Assembly: GCA_030673425.1 (NCBI GenBank)
Contig: DAOVJB010000022.1
Span: 1-12,537, forward strand
Length of the DNA: 12,537 bases
Direction of reading: 5' to 3'
Source of the DNA: Elusimicrobiota bacterium
Lineage (GTDB): Bacteria; CAYTYR01; UBA6262; DAOVJB01
Each line of letters opens with the position of its first letter. Position 1 is the stretch's first letter. The notes under the pieces were generated by a model. That model saw only the letters and a list, made by a program, of their open reading frames with translations. It made no database searches and was not told where the DNA came from. Positions 2,061-12,537 of the stretch are shown one piece after another. Both the position numbers and the translations under genes were made by a program.

Positions 2061-4820
2061 ATGAATAAGAAAGCATACACATTACCTGACAAGTTAAAGG
2101 AAGTGGTTGGCCAGTTTCCTGATAAGGTTGTTTTGCAGGTTAAAGAGGGAAGCGAGTATATTAGCTATACCTATAAAGAGTTTTATAAGATTGTTCAGAC
2201 TATCGCTCATTTTTTAATGAGTATGGGTATACAAAAGGGTGATAAAGTTGCTATTGTTTTTGAAAATAGACCTGAATGGGGCGCTGTCTACTTCGGGATT
2301 GTATTTACAGGTGCTATTGCTGTTCCGCTTGACCTTCAATCCAATCGAGAAGAGATAAAGTATCTTTTGCGTGATTCAGGAAGCAGGATGCTTTTTTCAT
2401 CCTATAAGTCACTTTCATTATTCAGTGGTCTAACCAATGAATTGGAGTCTCTGGAAAAGATAATAGTTCTTGATTACGAGAAAACATCTAAAGAGATTAT
2501 TCCTTTCTCAAGGGTAGTTACTACTATATCTGAGGCAACCTCAGAAGAAAATATACCTATAGTCAAAGCCGAAGATGTTGCCTCTATAGTCTATACCTCG
2601 GGAACGACCGGAGGGCCTAAAGGGGTAATCTTAACACACGATAATTTCTGCTCAAATTTTGAAGGTGTTGATAGATTAAAACTTATCTCTTCAAGTGATA
2701 ATATCCTCTCTATTTTACCTCTGCATCATACCTTCCCGTTTACCGTGACGCTGATTATTCCGATTTTTTGTGGGGCCACCATTACCTATATTAAAACCTT
2801 AAAGAGTGATGAATTACTGGAGTGTATGAGAGAGACAGGCGTAACAATACTGGTTGGGGTGCCCCAGCTTTTTTATATGTTTTTTAAACATATAGCTGAT
2901 GAACTGGCGAAAATCAATCTTTTCATCAGGATACCCCTTTTAGGTTTTATAGAAATGTTATCCTTTGTAAGGAAATTCAGCAGGGTTAATGTATTAAAAC
3001 CTGTGCTTTCAAAGATACATAGTTCCTTTGGAAAGAAGTTAAGATTTTTCGTGAGTGGAGGTGCACCGTTAAATGAAGATGCAGCAAGATTTCTTACGAA
3101 AATAGGCTTTACAATCATTGAAGGATACGGGCTTACTGAAACCTCACCTATTGTAAGCTTAAATCCGCTAAAGAAGCAGAAAATAGGGTCAGTGGGAAAG
3201 GTTATTCATAATGTAGAAGTCCGTATTGATAGTCCCGATAAAGATGGTATAGGAGAGATTATAATAAAAGGGCCTAATGTTATGGGAGGATATTACAGGC
3301 GGGATGAAGAGACACGGGCTGTCTTAAAAAATGATTGGTTCTATTCCGGTGACCTGGGTTATCTGGATGCTGAGGGATATCTTTATATCACGGGGAGAAA
3401 AAAAGAGATAATCGTTTTAGCTTCGGGGAAAAATATTTCACCGGTTGAAGTTGAATCACATTATGCCGTTAGTCCTTTTATAAAAGAACTCTGTATACTT
3501 GGGCTCGGAAAGCATGAGGATGAAAGCCTGGGTGCTGTTCTCGTACCTGATTTTGACCATATACGCAAAGTCAATGAGATTAATATTTATGCGGCAGTAA
3601 AGTGGGAGATTGAAACGCTCTCAAAACAGCTCCCCGCCTATAGGAGAATAACAGACTTCATAATTACAAATGAAAACCTGCCACGTACCAGACTTGGGAA
3701 AATAAAGAGGTTTGAAATTAGGAATAAATACCTGGATAAGTTTAAGGGAATCAAGCTGGAAAGGCCGGAAGATGGATTACCTAAAAGTGAGGAGGATTTA
3801 CGTATACTCCAAACAGAAGTTGCAAAGAAGATAGTTGAGATTTTAGCACGTGGATTGAAGATAAAGAGGAAAATTCGTCTGGATGACCACCTGGAATTGG
3901 ATTTCGGTGTCGATTCTTTAGGGCGTGTGGAATTGATGGGAGATATAGAAAAAGAATTTAATATTACTCTGCCTGAAGCTTTGATGGCGGGTGTCTATAC
4001 GGTTAAAGAGCTTATTTTCTTAATAGAAAGGTTAGTAGCAGAGGGAATTGTGAAGGGTGAGCAAGTTTTATCCTCTCAGGTAGCCGAAGACTTATGGACT
4101 GAAATATTAAGGAGAGAGCCTCCTCTGGATATAATTAAAAAAATAGATTTGCCTTATAAAAGGATATTGAGATTATCGACTATTCTTATACGTACAGGTT
4201 TATATATCATTTTTAAGATAATATGGCGTATCAGAATTGTTGATATAGGAAATCTTCCTGATGATAGGACATTTATCTTGTGTCCTAACCATGGAAGTTA
4301 CCTGGACGGTTTTATTATTGCAGGTTCCCTACCTTTATCCTTTAAGAAAGATATGTACTTTCTGGGCCAAAGGGCTTATTTTGAAGGTGCGATACTTAAG
4401 AGATTGACAAAACTTATAAGGGTAATTCCTATAGACCCGGCTACGAACCTTGTTAAGACTATGCAGACATATAGCTATCTTTTGGATAAGGGTAAAGCTG
4501 CCTGTATCTTTCCTGAAGGTACGAGGTCAATTGATGGTGAGGTTAAGGAATTCAAAAAAGGAGTGGGGATACTTGCTAAAGAATTACAAGTGCCGTTAGT
4601 CCCTGTTTATATAAGCGGTTCGTATGAATCCTGGCCCAGGACAAAAAGATTCCCTAAACCTCATGCAATTACGGTTGTTTTCGGGGAATCCTCTAACGTA
4701 GATGAACTTATTAAGATAGGCAGCAGGCTGGGAGCAGAGGATGAGTATGGGGCGGTGGTTTTAGGCATAAGGGAAAAGGTAATAGAATTGAAAAACAGGC
4801 TAAAAGAAAATAAAGGATAA
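2061..4820 (+). CDS. Acyl-(ACP/CoA) synthetase - acyl carrier - PlsC acyltransferase fusion
   Basis: A 919-aa protein with three enzyme modules. Residues ~1-565 are an adenylate-forming fatty acyl synthetase. They show the ATP-binding loop [11 protein letters not shown] (178-188), [10 protein letters not shown] from Glu354, a YSGDLGYLD segment, a hinge [10 protein letters not shown], and a C-terminal catalytic Lys547 in RLGKIKR. Residues ~580-660 are an acyl carrier domain, with [11 protein letters not shown] carrying the phosphopantetheine serine, Ser619. Residues ~690-905 are a PlsC/LPLAT acyltransferase with NHGSYLD (His744, Asp749) and FPEGTRS (817-823), preceded by a hydrophobic stretch near 712-735 that would attach it to the membrane. 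The likely role is to activate a fatty acid, load it on the internal carrier and pass it to a lysophospholipid or glycerol phosphate acceptor. E. coli Aas combines synthetase and acyltransferase but in the opposite order and without a carrier domain. The acceptor is not determined. Confidence 0.9.
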
Positions 4821-6073: not shown

Positions 6074-6094
6074 AACTCAGCTTTAATAATACCT

Positions 6095-6122
6095 TTGTCA
6101 ATTTATGCAGCCACTGTATAAC
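6095..6122 (+). promoter_or_regulatory. Candidate sigma70-type promoter upstream of the gene cassette
   Basis: TTGTCA (6095-6100) and TATAAC (6117-6122) are each one base from consensus and are separated by 16 bp. Transcription would begin near 6129, pass the cassette boundary at 6195/6196 and read the carbonic-anhydrase-like gene. The promoter lies outside the proposed cassette, in sequence that appears resident. A second TATAAT at 6142-6147 has no good -35 partner. The rest of the interval 6074-6195 shows no gene. Confidence 0.45.
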
Positions 6123-6194
6123 TATCAAATGTCATATTTTCTATAATAATGTAGTGTAGTTTTCTGAAAATAGAGTAGCCAGATAATATATAAT

Positions 6195-6201
6195 GTTAGA
6201 C
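6195..6201 (+). other. Cassette left boundary: recombined integron core site GTTAGAC
   Basis: GTTAGAC fits the integron crossover consensus GTTRRRY, and is the exact reverse complement of the R'' box GTCTAAC at 6599-6605. Integrase cuts between G and TT. On integration, the TTRRRY half of the cassette's own R' moves to the left end of the inserted cassette, so a left-end sequence complementary to R'' is what the mechanism predicts. It lies 31 bp before the start codon of the cassette gene. Confidence 0.75.
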
Positions 6202-6677
6202 AAATAAAATTAATTAAAATTGGAGTCAAAAAATGACTTTTTGCACATCAATTCATTGCATGGATGGGAGGATCCAGGAACCTATCATAAAATATTTAAA
6301 AAAGAACTATAGCATAACCTATGTTGACACAATAACTGAACCGGGGCCATGCAAAATACTTGCTGAGAATGAAGACAAAATATCAGTTAATTCCATTATA
6401 GAAAGGACTAAAATATCAATAAATAGGCATGGTTCGAAACTCATTGCTATTTCTGGACATTATGATTGTGCAGGAAATCCTTGCGATGAAGAGATACAGA
6501 AAAAACAAATAAGAGAATCTGTTAAACATCTTAAAAACAACTATCCTGAAATAAAAATAATCGGGTTGTGGATTGATAATGAATGGAAAATAAATAATGT
6601 CTAACAACTCAATGCAGCGGACCTAAAACCGCCGCAAGTTTAAGCCGCCAGCGGTTTTAGGCCGCTGATTTCGGGCG
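6196..6677 (+). mobile_element. Solitary integron gene cassette (482 bp)
   Basis: The unit runs from the TT of the left core site to the G of the right core site (G6677^T6678). It has the compact layout of integron cassettes: a short leader of 37 bases without its own promoter, one gene, a stop codon inside the R'' box, and an attC site filling the 3' end. The gene and attC are in the usual relative orientation. No second attC, attI or tyrosine-recombinase integrase is visible in the window, so this resembles a single attC lacking an integrase, inserted at a secondary G^TT site. The integrase could be elsewhere in the genome or could have acted and been lost. Removing the unit joins AATATATAATG to TTATATAGTC. 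Confidence 0.75.
6233..6604 (+). CDS. Small beta-carbonic-anhydrase-like protein encoded in the cassette
   Basis: A 123-aa soluble protein. It has the beta-carbonic anhydrase active-site pattern: C9-x-D11-x-R13 (CMDGR) and H76-x-x-C79 (GHYDC), which in that family supply the three zinc ligands (Cys, His, Cys) and the Asp-Arg dyad. At 123 aa it is much shorter than ordinary beta-CAs (about 180-230 aa). It lacks their N-terminal helical arm, and where they have a NAG-type segment it has ITEPGPCKILA. It may be a minimal CA-like branch rather than a proven CO2 hydratase. The start at 6233 is supported by GGAG at 6222-6225, spaced 7 bases. The TAA stop lies within the R'' box of attC. The gene is AT-rich with no operon partner, as expected for a captured cassette gene. 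Confidence 0.8.
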   Translation: MTFCTSIHCMDGRIQEPIIKYLKKNYSITYVDTITEPGPCKILAENEDKISVNSIIERTKISINRHGSKLIAISGHYDCAGNPCDEEIQKKQIRESVKHLKNNYPEIKIIGLWIDNEWKINNV

Positions 6678-6683
6678 TTATAT
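6599..6683 (+). other. attC recombination site
   Basis: The order of elements matches an integron attC. R'' is GTCTAAC (6599-6605), followed by an unpaired spacer (6606-6614). The left arm CAGCGG-A-CCTAAAACCGC (6615-6632) pairs with the right arm at 6651-6667, giving a perfect 17-bp stem apart from one extrahelical A at 6621. An 18-nt terminal segment (6633-6650) separates the arms. A second unpaired spacer ATTTCGGGC (6668-6676) leads to R' GTTATAT (6677-6683). R' deviates from GTTRRRY at one base, which is expected if its TTATAT half belongs to the invaded target. The single extra base in the left arm is the feature that directs integrase to the bottom strand in known attC sites. Confidence 0.82.
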
Positions 6684-6759
6684 AGTCATTGAGAAATATA
6701 AGAAATTGATATAAGTATCGAACTCCTGAAATGCGGAAGTCAGACCCCTGAAATTTTTT

Positions 6760-6784
6760 AACCGCCAATAAGGGTGGTTTTTTT
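6760..6784 (+). terminator. Rho-independent terminator
   Basis: AACCGCC (6760-6766) pairs with GGTGGTT (6773-6779) through seven base pairs, including one G-T wobble, around the loop AATAAG. A run of T follows to 6784. It would end transcripts that read through the cassette. It lies in the resident sequence right of the cassette boundary, so it probably served the locus before insertion. Confidence 0.7.
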
Positions 6785-6809
6785 ATAAAAATACTTGCTA
6801 AGGAATCCA

Positions 6810-6839
6810 AAAGTATGATAGAATACTTTAGTTAAAGTA
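6810..6839. repeat. Overlapping inverted repeats built on AAAGTA
   Basis: AAAGTAT (6810-6816) and ATACTTT (6823-6829) form a 7-bp inverted repeat around six bases. The second arm overlaps a further palindrome, TACTTTAGTTAAAGTA (6824-6839, arms of 7 around GT). The same 6-mer core thus occurs three times in alternating orientation between the terminator and the PPDK gene. The region is AT-rich, so chance is possible. A protein-binding array upstream of the PPDK promoter is an inference. Confidence 0.4.
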
Positions 6840-6859
6840 CTATTTGATTATATTTAATA

Positions 6860-6874
6860 TAACTATAATAGTTA
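6860..6874 (+). promoter_or_regulatory. Palindrome over a TATAAT -10 box before the PPDK gene
   Basis: TAACTATAATAGTTA is a perfect 7-1-7 palindrome whose centre contains a consensus TATAAT (6864-6869). The -10 box would start transcription near 6876, giving a leader of about 35 bases. No convincing -35 is present: TTGATT at 6844-6849 is only 14 bp away and TATTTG at 6841-6846 is a poor match at 17 bp. A repressor site overlapping the -10 box is possible but unproven. Confidence 0.4.
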
Positions 6875-6892
6875 AAAATTAATAAAACAAAA

Positions 6893-6900
6893 AAGGAGGT
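6893..6900 (+). promoter_or_regulatory. Shine-Dalgarno of the PPDK gene
   Basis: AAGGAGGT is a near-perfect anti-16S match placed 10 bases before the ATG at 6911. It supports that start despite the lysine-rich N-terminal tail, and predicts efficient translation. Confidence 0.8.
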
Positions 6901-6910
6901 TGTATTAAAG

Positions 6911-9702: not shown

Positions 9703-12537
9703 ATGTACTTTAAGAAATTAGAATTATTAGGTTTTAAGTCTTTTGCCGACAAGGTAGATTTAAGGTTTGAATCCGGCATTACCGCTATTGTAGGACCTAA
9801 TGGTTGCGGGAAGACCAACATTTCAGATGCTATAATGTGGGTTTTGGGAGAACAGAGTGCCAAGCAGCTGCGCGGTAGTAAAATGGGAGACATTATATTT
9901 AACGGTTCATCATCCCGTCAGCCTTTGAGTATGGCAGAAGTATCTTTAACTCTGGATAACTCCCAGAATGTTATTCCTGTGGATTATGGTGAAGTAACAA
10001 TTACACGCAGGATGTTCCGTTCAGGGGAGACCCAGTATTTTATTAATAAAACACCTTGTCGGCTTAAAGACATAGCCGAACTCTTTATGGATACAGGAAT
10101 AGGGACTGATGCTTATTCCATCATAGAAGAGTCCAAGATAGATCTGATATTAAGTTCAAAAAGTGAGGACCGGCGTTTCCTCTTTGAGGAAGCTGCCGGC
10201 ATCATGAAATATAAGAGCAGGAAAAATGAAGCCCTTCATAAGTTGGAGAAGACAGAACAAAACCTGGTACGTTTAGGGGATATTTTGACAGAAATAAAAT
10301 CAAGGGTCAGCTCTTTAGACTATCAGGTTAGAAAAGCACGCCAGTATCAGAAGTATAAACAGACGCTTAAGACAATAGAGATAGAACTCCTAAATGATCA
10401 ATTGCGTGAGCTTACCAATAGTTTAGCTTTTACGGCAGAAGAGTTTAATGATGTCAGAGATGAAATAGAAAAATTAAATGTTTCAATTAACACGCAGGAA
10501 GCTGATGTTAGTAAAATAAAACTGGAACTGACGGAGCTTGATGAAAAGACGCTTGCTGTTGGGCAGGATCTTTCAAAAATTACAGGCGAACTAGAGAGAA
10601 AAGAAGAAAGAATATCCAATCTACAAGAGAAGAAAGAAACCCTTTCGATAGAGGAGTCTAAGTTAAAAGAAAAGATTAAACTGGATGAAGAAAAAACAGA
10701 AAGGGTAAAAGAGAGAAATATTGCGCTGGAAGAAGAAATAGAAGAATTAAATAGAGACATAACAACAGGAGAAGCCGCGTTAAAGGAGAAGGAAGGGGTA
10801 TTAAAGACACAGAATAGGGAAATTGAGGGTATCAGTAAGAGTTTAGATTCAGTAAAGGATGCTACCTTTAATTTATTAAATGAAATATCCCACCGCAAGA
10901 ACGAAGTAACCACGCTTTCTGTGACTCTCAAGAATATAAAGATGCAACAGGATAAATTAAAAGGGGAAGAAAGAAATCTTGAGTCGTTGACAGCTGATGT
11001 TGAAGGTAGAATCGAAAGCGCGCGAGATAATATAAGCACGCAAGAAGAACAGTTACGCAATGAACTCCAAAGTAAGAAACTGCTTAAGAGAGAAATAGAA
11101 GAAAAAGAAAAATCACATTATAACCTCAACGAGGAATTTGAAAACATAAAGCAAGAATTTAATATTAAATCTTCCCGATATGAATTCTTGCAAAAACTAC
11201 AGGCAAATTTTGAAGGTTATGATGCCGGAGTAAAAGAGATCTTAAACAGTAACTTTACCGGTATTCATGCAACTGTAGCATCTATAGTTGATGTAAAAGC
11301 TGAATATGAAGTTGCTATTGAGGAAGTCCTTGGAAATAAACTTCAATATATAATTGCTCAAGATATAAACTCGGCCAGGAATGCTATAAGGTATCTTAAG
11401 GAAGAAAATAAAGGTCGGGTTAATTTTTTGGTGCTTGATAATTTCATCAACTATAAGGTGCAGAATAGATTAAATATAGAAAATGAAAAAATAATTGCTA
11501 AAGGTATTGATTTAGTATCATTTAATCCTAAATACAGAGCTGTTATGGACTATTTATTAGGGGATGTTTTAGTAGTAGATAATCTTGAGGCGGCTTTAGA
11601 AATAAGTAAAGATTCTGATTTTAATGGTAGGACAGTAACATTAAAAGGTGAATTACTGGAATATATATCAGGAACTACTACCCTCTTAAGAGGGGGGAGC
11701 AGGATAGGGGAGAGCGGTTTTTTAGGAAGGAAAAGAGAGATTAGAGAATTAAAAGAATTTCTACCCGGTATTTCTGAAAATATAAACAGATTGAAAACAG
11801 ACAGGGAGGGTTTAGAGCAGAACTTAAAAGCTAAAAAGCTTGAGCTTGAAAAGATAAACTTAAGCATTCAAAAACTTGAGGTAATCCTGGATAATTCGCG
11901 TGAAAGTCATAAGGAATTACAGAATGAAATAGAAAAAATAAGAAAGCAGGCGGAGACATTATCAATAGAACAGATACAGTGGCACAAGGAGCACGAAGAG
12001 ACGAACACGGCTTTAGCTGATGTCAATAATTTACTTGTGGAACTAGAAAAAAACAACTCCGAAAATCAAGACAATATAAACAGATTAGAAAAAGAACTAC
12101 ATGATAAATCTAACTTAAATATATCCTTAAATGAGACAATAACAACAATCAAAGTAAATCTGGCTCAAAAGGGACAGAAAAGAGAAAGCCTCCTTTATGA
12201 GATTAAAAGGGCAAAAGAAGAACTGAACGAGGTTATTAACTCTTTAGAAGATGAAAAGAGAGATATCTCTTCTATTGACCAAAAAGTTGTTGAATTAGGG
12301 AATATAAAAACAGAAGAGGATTCATACATAGAAAGATTAATCAGCGAGAAAGACCATACCGAAAAACTAGTCAATGAAGCCAGAGAAAACCGTCAACAGC
12401 TTATGGACTCATTAAATGAGAAAGAGAGTTCTGTTAAGGCGCAAAGGAGCCAGATAGAAGCTCGTAAGGCGGCTTTTCACCAGAAAGAATTAAAAAATAC
12501 CCAGATTAATACACATATAGAAGATATAAAGAAAAGG
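9703..12537 (+). CDS. smc: Chromosome segregation ATPase SMC, N-terminal 945 residues
   Basis: The frame is open from ATG 9703 to the window end (945 codons, checked without stops); a complete SMC is about 1,150-1,200 aa, so the C-terminal head is outside. SMC forms ring dimers with ScpA/ScpB that compact and segregate the chromosome. The N-terminal head begins YFKKLELLGFKSFADK, with a Walker A GPNGCGKTN (31-39), then VLGEQSAKQLRG and a SSKSEDRRFLFEEAAGI segment after the Q-loop. A long Glu/Lys-rich coiled coil covers ~170-500, a hinge about 505-675 (starts FEGYDAGVKEIL and includes FLVLD and RGGS), and the returning coil follows. Walker A differs from the common GPNGSGKSN at Cys35 and Thr38, and residues 142-144 read Glu-Glu-Ser where most SMCs have x-Gln-Gly. 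AAAGGGG at 9692-9698 is the likely Shine-Dalgarno, 4 bases from the ATG. Confidence 0.93.
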   Translation, partial: MYFKKLELLGFKSFADKVDLRFESGITAIVGPNGCGKTNISDAIMWVLGEQSAKQLRGSKMGDIIFNGSSSRQPLSMAEVSLTLDNSQNVIPVDYGEVTITRRMFRSGETQYFINKTPCRLKDIAELFMDTGIGTDAYSIIEESKIDLILSSKSEDRRFLFEEAAGIMKYKSRKNEALHKLEKTEQNLVRLGDILTEIKSRVSSLDYQVRKARQYQKYKQTLKTIEIELLNDQLRELTNSLAFTAEEFNDVRDEIEKLNVSINTQEADVSKIKLELTELDEKTLAVGQDLSKITGELERKEERISNLQEKKETLSIEESKLKEKIKLDEEKTERVKERNIALEEEIEELNRDITTGEAALKEKEGVLKTQNREIEGISKSLDSVKDATFNLLNEISHRKNEVTTLSVTLKNIKMQQDKLKGEERNLESLTADVEGRIESARDNISTQEEQLRNELQSKKLLKREIEEKEKSHYNLNEEFENIKQEFNIKSSRYEFLQKLQANFEGYDAGVKEILNSNFTGIHATVASIVDVKAEYEVAIEEVLGNKLQYIIAQDINSARNAIRYLKEENKGRVNFLVLDNFINYKVQNRLNIENEKIIAKGIDLVSFNPKYRAVMDYLLGDVLVVDNLEAALEISKDSDFNGRTVTLKGELLEYISGTTTLLRGGSRIGESGFLGRKREIRELKEFLPGISENINRLKTDREGLEQNLKAKKLELEKINLSIQKLEVILDNSRESHKELQNEIEKIRKQAETLSIEQIQWHKEHEETNTALADVNNLLVELEKNNSENQDNINRLEKELHDKSNLNISLNETITTIKVNLAQKGQKRESLLYEIKRAKEELNEVINSLEDEKRDISSIDQKVVELGNIKTEEDSYIERLISEKDHTEKLVNEARENRQQLMDSLNEKESSVKAQRSQIEARKAAFHQKELKNTQINTHIEDIKKR

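Follow-up and report, generated by a model that had tools for sequence, protein, structure and literature searches.

Integron gene cassettes move by recombination of their attC sites, which are recombined as a folded bottom strand and cut in the R' box between G and TT (PMC2727003, PMC10127599). Cassettes inserted outside integrons have also been described. The aadB gene in RSF1010 is cited as a single cassette at a secondary site (Recchia and Hall 1995, cited in PMC10127599), and genome-wide insertion at attG sites in E. coli has been reported (Loot et al. 2024, doi 10.1038/s41564-023-01548-y; cited in PMC11023631, PMC12901181, PMC12444791). Genomes lacking an integrase may also carry attC sites, either clustered (CALIN) or single, and IntegronFinder 2 drops the single-attC cases by default, though these "can be true positives" (PMC9024848). 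In addition, alpha and beta carbonic anhydrase genes are found in CALINs of vent symbionts (PMC10295459).

Here we describe a lone cassette in a window of 12,537 nucleotides (contig DAOVJB010000022.1, assembly GCA_030673425.1) whose host probably belongs to candidate phylum UBA6262, in which two class relatives place it; the name is in use in the literature (PMC9391474). As far as aadB in RSF1010 and the E. coli attG insertions are described in the papers that cite them, the likeness is close: a whole cassette stands singly between G^TT boundaries, at a site of neither the attI nor the attC type, and its expression, as for attG-type insertions, would depend on nearby promoters. Unlike the attG-type examples so described, our cassette is natural, comes from an uncultured candidate phylum without detectable IntI and carries no resistance gene. 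It shares with CALINs and single attC sites the presence of attC in a genome without integrase (PMC9024848), but here a homologous copy elsewhere, in a different genome, delimits the mobile unit independently. Carbonic-anhydrase-like genes beside attC are found in three further genomes (G245, G219 and G372), as in the vent-symbiont CALINs (PMC10295459), but all those cassettes sit in arrays. Since secondary-site insertion and lone attC sites are already known, the mechanism is not new; the example is unusually well-bounded. The novelty lies in the host, in the lack of an integrase among the class genomes examined, in a further candidate within this genome, and in a distant copy that fixes the left boundary to the base.

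Cassette anatomy and attC structure

An earlier note on this DNA had placed a cassette at 6196-6677, with a promoterless gene whose stop lies inside GTCTAAC and core boxes in the correct orientation at both ends; this anatomy is confirmed, and the coordinates are exact to the base. The cassette measures 482 bp, with crossovers at G6195^TT6196 on the left and at G6677^TT6678 on the right (Table 1). The left core must complement the R'' box because both boxes pair in the excised circle, and GTTAGAC is indeed the perfect complement of GTCTAAC. This motif is found in a single copy on the + strand of the window, and a random occurrence within the 122 bp between the genes has a probability of about 0.9%. 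The right core matches GTTRRRY at 6 of 7 positions. One ORF takes up 372 of the 482 bp, which leaves little non-coding DNA, and its stop codon TAA lies inside R''. The 5' untranslated part within the cassette is 37 nt long, and a scan for consensus sequences found no promoter-like site on the + strand of the cassette.

Table 1. Positions of the features of the cassette, its attC site and its surroundings in the window, and of the attC sites of a class relative (G003)
Feature	Position	Strand	Basis
Left intergenic half of the target, 27% G+C	6074..6195	.	joined flanks
Left core GTTAGAC, the cassette's own R' after G^TT	6195..6201	+	sequence
Complete integron gene cassette, left-core TT through right-core G	6196..6677	+	sequence and blastn against G245
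Shine-Dalgarno-like TTGGAG, 7 bases 5' of ATG	6220..6225	+	sequence
Cassette gene, 123-aa beta-carbonic-anhydrase-like protein (Pro_CA_2, PF20393)	6233..6604	+	Pfam
attC, 85 nt as present, with the target's right half serving as R'	6599..6683	+	R2, fold, covariation
R'' box GTCTAAC with the stop codon	6599..6605	+	sequence, model alignment
L'' arm AAT-G-CAGCGG with extrahelical G6614; A6621 a second extrahelical base	6611..6620	+	model alignment, fold
Variable terminal structure, 11-bp stem and loop atop the attC hairpin	6622..6661	+	fold
L' arm CCGCTG-ATT	6662..6670	+	model alignment
Right core GTTATAT: G6677 is the cassette's last base, followed by the target's right half	6677..6683	+	sequence
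Right intergenic half of the target, 25% G+C, no attC or attI	6678..6910	.	R2 scan, joined flanks
Intrinsic-terminator-like hairpin 3' of the cassette	6760..6779	+	consensus scan only
G003 attC sites	L102 552-627; L103 3307-3370; L104 11410-11486; L105 7108-7173		R2

The attC layout R''-L''/L'-R' is complete, with the spacers AACTC after R'' and TCGGGC before the core GTTATAT. The 17-bp stem with one extrahelical base that had been seen earlier is real and can be refined. CAGCGG (6615-6620) is followed by the unpaired A6621 and then by CCTAAAACCGC; to this are added the extrahelical G6614 and three extra pairs, between AAT (6611-6613) and ATT (6668-6670). The bottom strand, i.e. the one recombined by IntI, folds at -22.6 kcal/mol (z -4.7), a value equalled by 0 of 200 shuffles; the z of the top strand is -3.9.

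We then scored the site with a covariance model, R2 (60 positions, 16 pairs), made from ten attC sites with the window excluded: environmental genomes that carry an integrase supplied seven, and the other three belong to class 1 integron cassettes (aac(3)-Ib, qacF and qacG2). R2 matches 6599-6683 with 46.5 bits (E 2e-9 in the window and 2.2e-7 genome-wide), the runner-up in the window reaching 7.3 bits. These E-values are rough, the calibration being short, and specificity therefore rests on control genomes. Three of the four class relatives (G001, G002 and G004) gave no match at E<=1, and where a genome carries IntI the model finds arrays, some with many matches (e.g. 57 in G091). Across ten attC sites, the window's included, the named pairs hold in 89% of cells, and 25 cells are double-changed vs. 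10.2 in shuffles. The covariation score is 0.429 and falls to 0.073 or less when the partner is slid, a slide of one column being enough to destroy the signal. According to the earlier note, the lack of a covariance-model match, together with the same 482 bp in all relatives and diverged, unconstrained stem arms, would refute a cassette; this combination was not observed. An Rfam scan of the window returned no attC and no other noteworthy RNA-family match. A simple IUPAC pattern for attC was also run on the whole genome and is useless alone, as its 23 matches equal those of the reversed control.

Copies in other genomes and the encoded protein

The protein encoded by the ORF was searched for in 386 genomes, among which a single relative stands out, with 88% protein identity, in G245, a genome outside the class. 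With blastn, positions 6195-6613 match G245 at 91.9% identity over 419 bp with zero gaps, from the crossover G to the L'' arm of attC, the 5' untranslated part being included in this gap-free alignment. Upstream of the crossover G, no homology to G245 was detected and the outside sequence is unalike. In G245, a different attC (R2 25.7 bits) ends at the base preceding the shared TTAG; the copy follows it directly and is therefore a cassette in an array there. On the 3' side, the homology ends within attC, and the other half of the copy's attC seems to be lost in G245. The adjacent housekeeping protein, PPDK, is 62% identical between the window's genome and G245, vs. 92% for the unit, which therefore travelled alone. 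G245 carries an intI (454 bits). This gene (L214, contig C4:3843-4787) has one in-frame TAG with a full family score; the TAG may mean that the gene decayed recently to a pseudogene, or it may be a recoded stop or an error of sequencing.

Among the features that define an integron gene cassette, a single ORF with no promoter-like site of its own, an attC at the 3' end, G^TT boundaries and movement as a unit between unrelated places are found here. With the covariance-model match, both core sites and a DNA homology edge at the crossover base in another genome, it is as good as shown that 6196-6677 is an integron cassette.

Other members of the gene family were also found as cassettes. The left core GTTAGCC of such a cassette in G219 is perfectly complementary to its R'' GGCTAAC, and no IntI above the family cut-off was found in this genome. 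The G219 locus (contig C51, L212 421-5380, - strand) is an array of at least four attC sites with the Pro_CA_2 cassette, and is a CALIN. In G372, a Pro_CA_2 relative also lies beside an attC. Nevertheless, apart from the window, an attC was found near the Pro_CA_2 homologue in only 3 of the 31 loci tested. As most homologues have no attC nearby, the family is mostly ordinary and has repeatedly been made into cassettes. The PPDK proteins of G245, G219 and G091 share 54-66% identity with the nearest named loci. Searches of plasmids, phages and viral contigs with the protein, and of plasmids with the DNA, gave no match.

The 123-aa protein matches the Pfam family Pro_CA_2 (PF20393) at 1e-47, with 161.8 bits for a cut-off of 30. 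Two motifs, C9-x-D11-G-R13 and H76-x-x-C79, are invariant in 27 homologues, and C9, D11, R13, H76 and C79 are at the positions expected of the zinc site of beta-carbonic anhydrases (CxDxR dyad, HxxC). From these zinc-site motifs, the protein is a putative beta-type carbonic anhydrase. Its matches to the solved beta-CA structures 1g5c and 3las are weak and not significant (E 0.2-0.5), and the enzyme activity is therefore a prediction.

Insertion site, host genome and further attC sites

The cassette lies between a gene encoding a UMF1-type MFS transporter and ppdK, both co-directional with it. Upstream, the transporter gene closes an operon-like run that comprises a sugar-isomerase-like fragment, a TPR/peptidase gene and an AMP-binding/acyltransferase gene; downstream, ppdK is followed by smc, in agreement with the housekeeping neighbours named in the earlier note. 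Within this region, one ORF (2061-4820) joins AMP-binding, phosphopantetheine-carrier and acyltransferase domains, like acyltransferase/acyl-ACP synthetase fusions. The smc gene (9703-12537) runs off the contig end, and its coiled-coil part yields long antisense ORFs (e.g. 10398-11060, - strand), which are not evidence of genes. A consensus scan detected no terminator-like site between the transporter stop and the cassette.

Joining the two flanks reconstitutes a putative empty site, ...gataatatataatg^ttatatagtcattgag... (ataatg^ttatat at the junction), and R2 detects no attC in either flank. No attI or integrase is adjacent either, and the right half reads GTTATAT. The cassette sits precisely at a G^TT that is neither attI nor attC, very probably a secondary site, and the flanks give good support to the non-attI insertion proposed earlier. 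We searched for a relative with both flanks, by PPDK and UMF1 synteny, and none was found. The transporter gene is absent from the four class relatives (G001-G004), in which ppdK has another neighbourhood, with glyS upstream and a BamA-like gene downstream, and among 80 named PPDK loci none has the transporter gene.

The window's genome is a MAG of 1.32 Mb in 199 contigs, 88% complete. Its PPDK is 82% identical to those of the class relatives, and the contig is therefore correctly binned. This genome encodes two tyrosine recombinases, both of which read as XerC/XerD-like. Against the integron-integrase family TIGR02249 (cut-off 265 bits), its best score is 91.9 bits, and no protein of the four class relatives passes the cut-off. 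With no intI in the window and none above the cut-off in these five genomes, no complete integron was found. The absence of an integrase from the region, claimed from the sequence at first, thus extends to the assembled genome; since the MAG is 88% complete and in 199 contigs, an intI or further cassettes could be missing from it.

A search for further attC sites in the window's genome returned a second candidate for a lone cassette, on another contig (C89, L083 1113 to 386, - strand, 727 bp). Its product is an OmpW-like outer-membrane protein (206 aa), its left core is GTTATAC and its R'' ATCTAAC. A Big_5-domain gene follows closely, and the G^TT site is AT-rich like that in the window (...tatattatatg^ttatgtgcataaaatt...). 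Its attC is weak, at 24 bits and a genome-wide E of 0.04, and the L stem contains two mismatches. Its protein has a single, weak relative in the 386 genomes, so this second cassette is only presumed to be mobile. With one attC in the window and the second on another contig, the genome does not show the cluster of at least two attC sites that makes a CALIN. In one class relative without IntI, G003, attC sites are scattered over four places (33 bits for two of them, 24 for the others), some close to contig ends, next to a methyltransferase gene, a DUF4160 gene and other small ORFs. At one of these loci (L102), the ORF preceding the insert resembles a truncated transporter (169 aa). The second lone cassette and the four sites of G003 fit the earlier suggestion that this lineage takes part in cassette exchange.

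Origin of the cassette

It is very likely that an intact, lone cassette entered as a circle at an AT-rich, non-attI G^TT site, with an integrase that acted in trans or has since been lost. The circle (GTCTAAC...GTTAGAC) would have been opened at R', an integron integrase would have recombined the folded bottom strand of attC with the genomic G^TT, and the junction would have been resolved by replication, giving target-left-G^TTAGAC...cassette...attC-G^TT-target-right. The integrase may have come from a transient element, or the lineage may have lost it since. Transcripts of the upstream genes, which point the same way, would probably read through the cassette and end at the terminator-like hairpin (6760-6779), and so express its gene. 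The known recombination steps (PMC2727003, PMC10127599) account for all the features seen.

Where an integrase is lacking, attC sites, lone or clustered, are often taken as remnants, and G219, with its four attC sites but no IntI that passes the cut-off, is such a case. The cassette might likewise be the relic of an integron or cassette array whose integrase and other cassettes were deleted here. However, no second attC, attI-like site or integrase fragment was found in the 12.5-kb window, both flanks are short, AT-rich and intergenic between co-directional host genes, the four class relatives have no IntI, and the second lone cassette lies on another contig in a similar AT-rich G^TT context; such a relic is therefore unlikely. 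It is also rather doubtful that a lineage without any integron integrase keeps gaining scattered single cassettes, circles from the community being integrated at AT-rich G^TT sites without resident IntI, for example by an integrase imported for a short time or by the Xer recombinases of the host.

Two other explanations deny that a cassette moved into this genome at all. As the sequence is a MAG assembly, the cassette of another organism could have been joined into the contig, but both junctions fall exactly at integrase crossover points, the target halves are the contig's own AT-rich sequence, and the contig runs on in both directions for roughly 6 kb, its genes co-directional. Moreover, no identical copy that could have seeded a chimaera was met, the nearest being 92% identical, and we regard this artefact as very improbable. 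A native gene followed by a terminator-like hairpin, resembling a cassette by chance, would agree with the many Pro_CA_2 homologues without a nearby attC, e.g. the G091 copy beside a nuoN-like gene. This is even harder to credit, and the chance that it is correct is slight indeed: the R2 score is 46.5 bits, the hairpin is not followed by a T-run, the homology with G245 begins at the very base predicted for the crossover, the copy there abutting an attC, and the gene is absent from all four class relatives, its closest homologue being in a distant genome.

Our limited literature search found no report of integrons in UBA6262. The insertion of cassettes outside integrons was so far a matter of the laboratory and a few resistance plasmids, and this locus is a natural case with both ends fixed. 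Default screens, which require at least two attC sites, would miss such a lone cassette. A survey of the number of lone cassettes in integrase-free genomes, and of the G^TT sites they have chosen, is now possible. The locus suggests that a cassette pool reaches genomes without an integrase.
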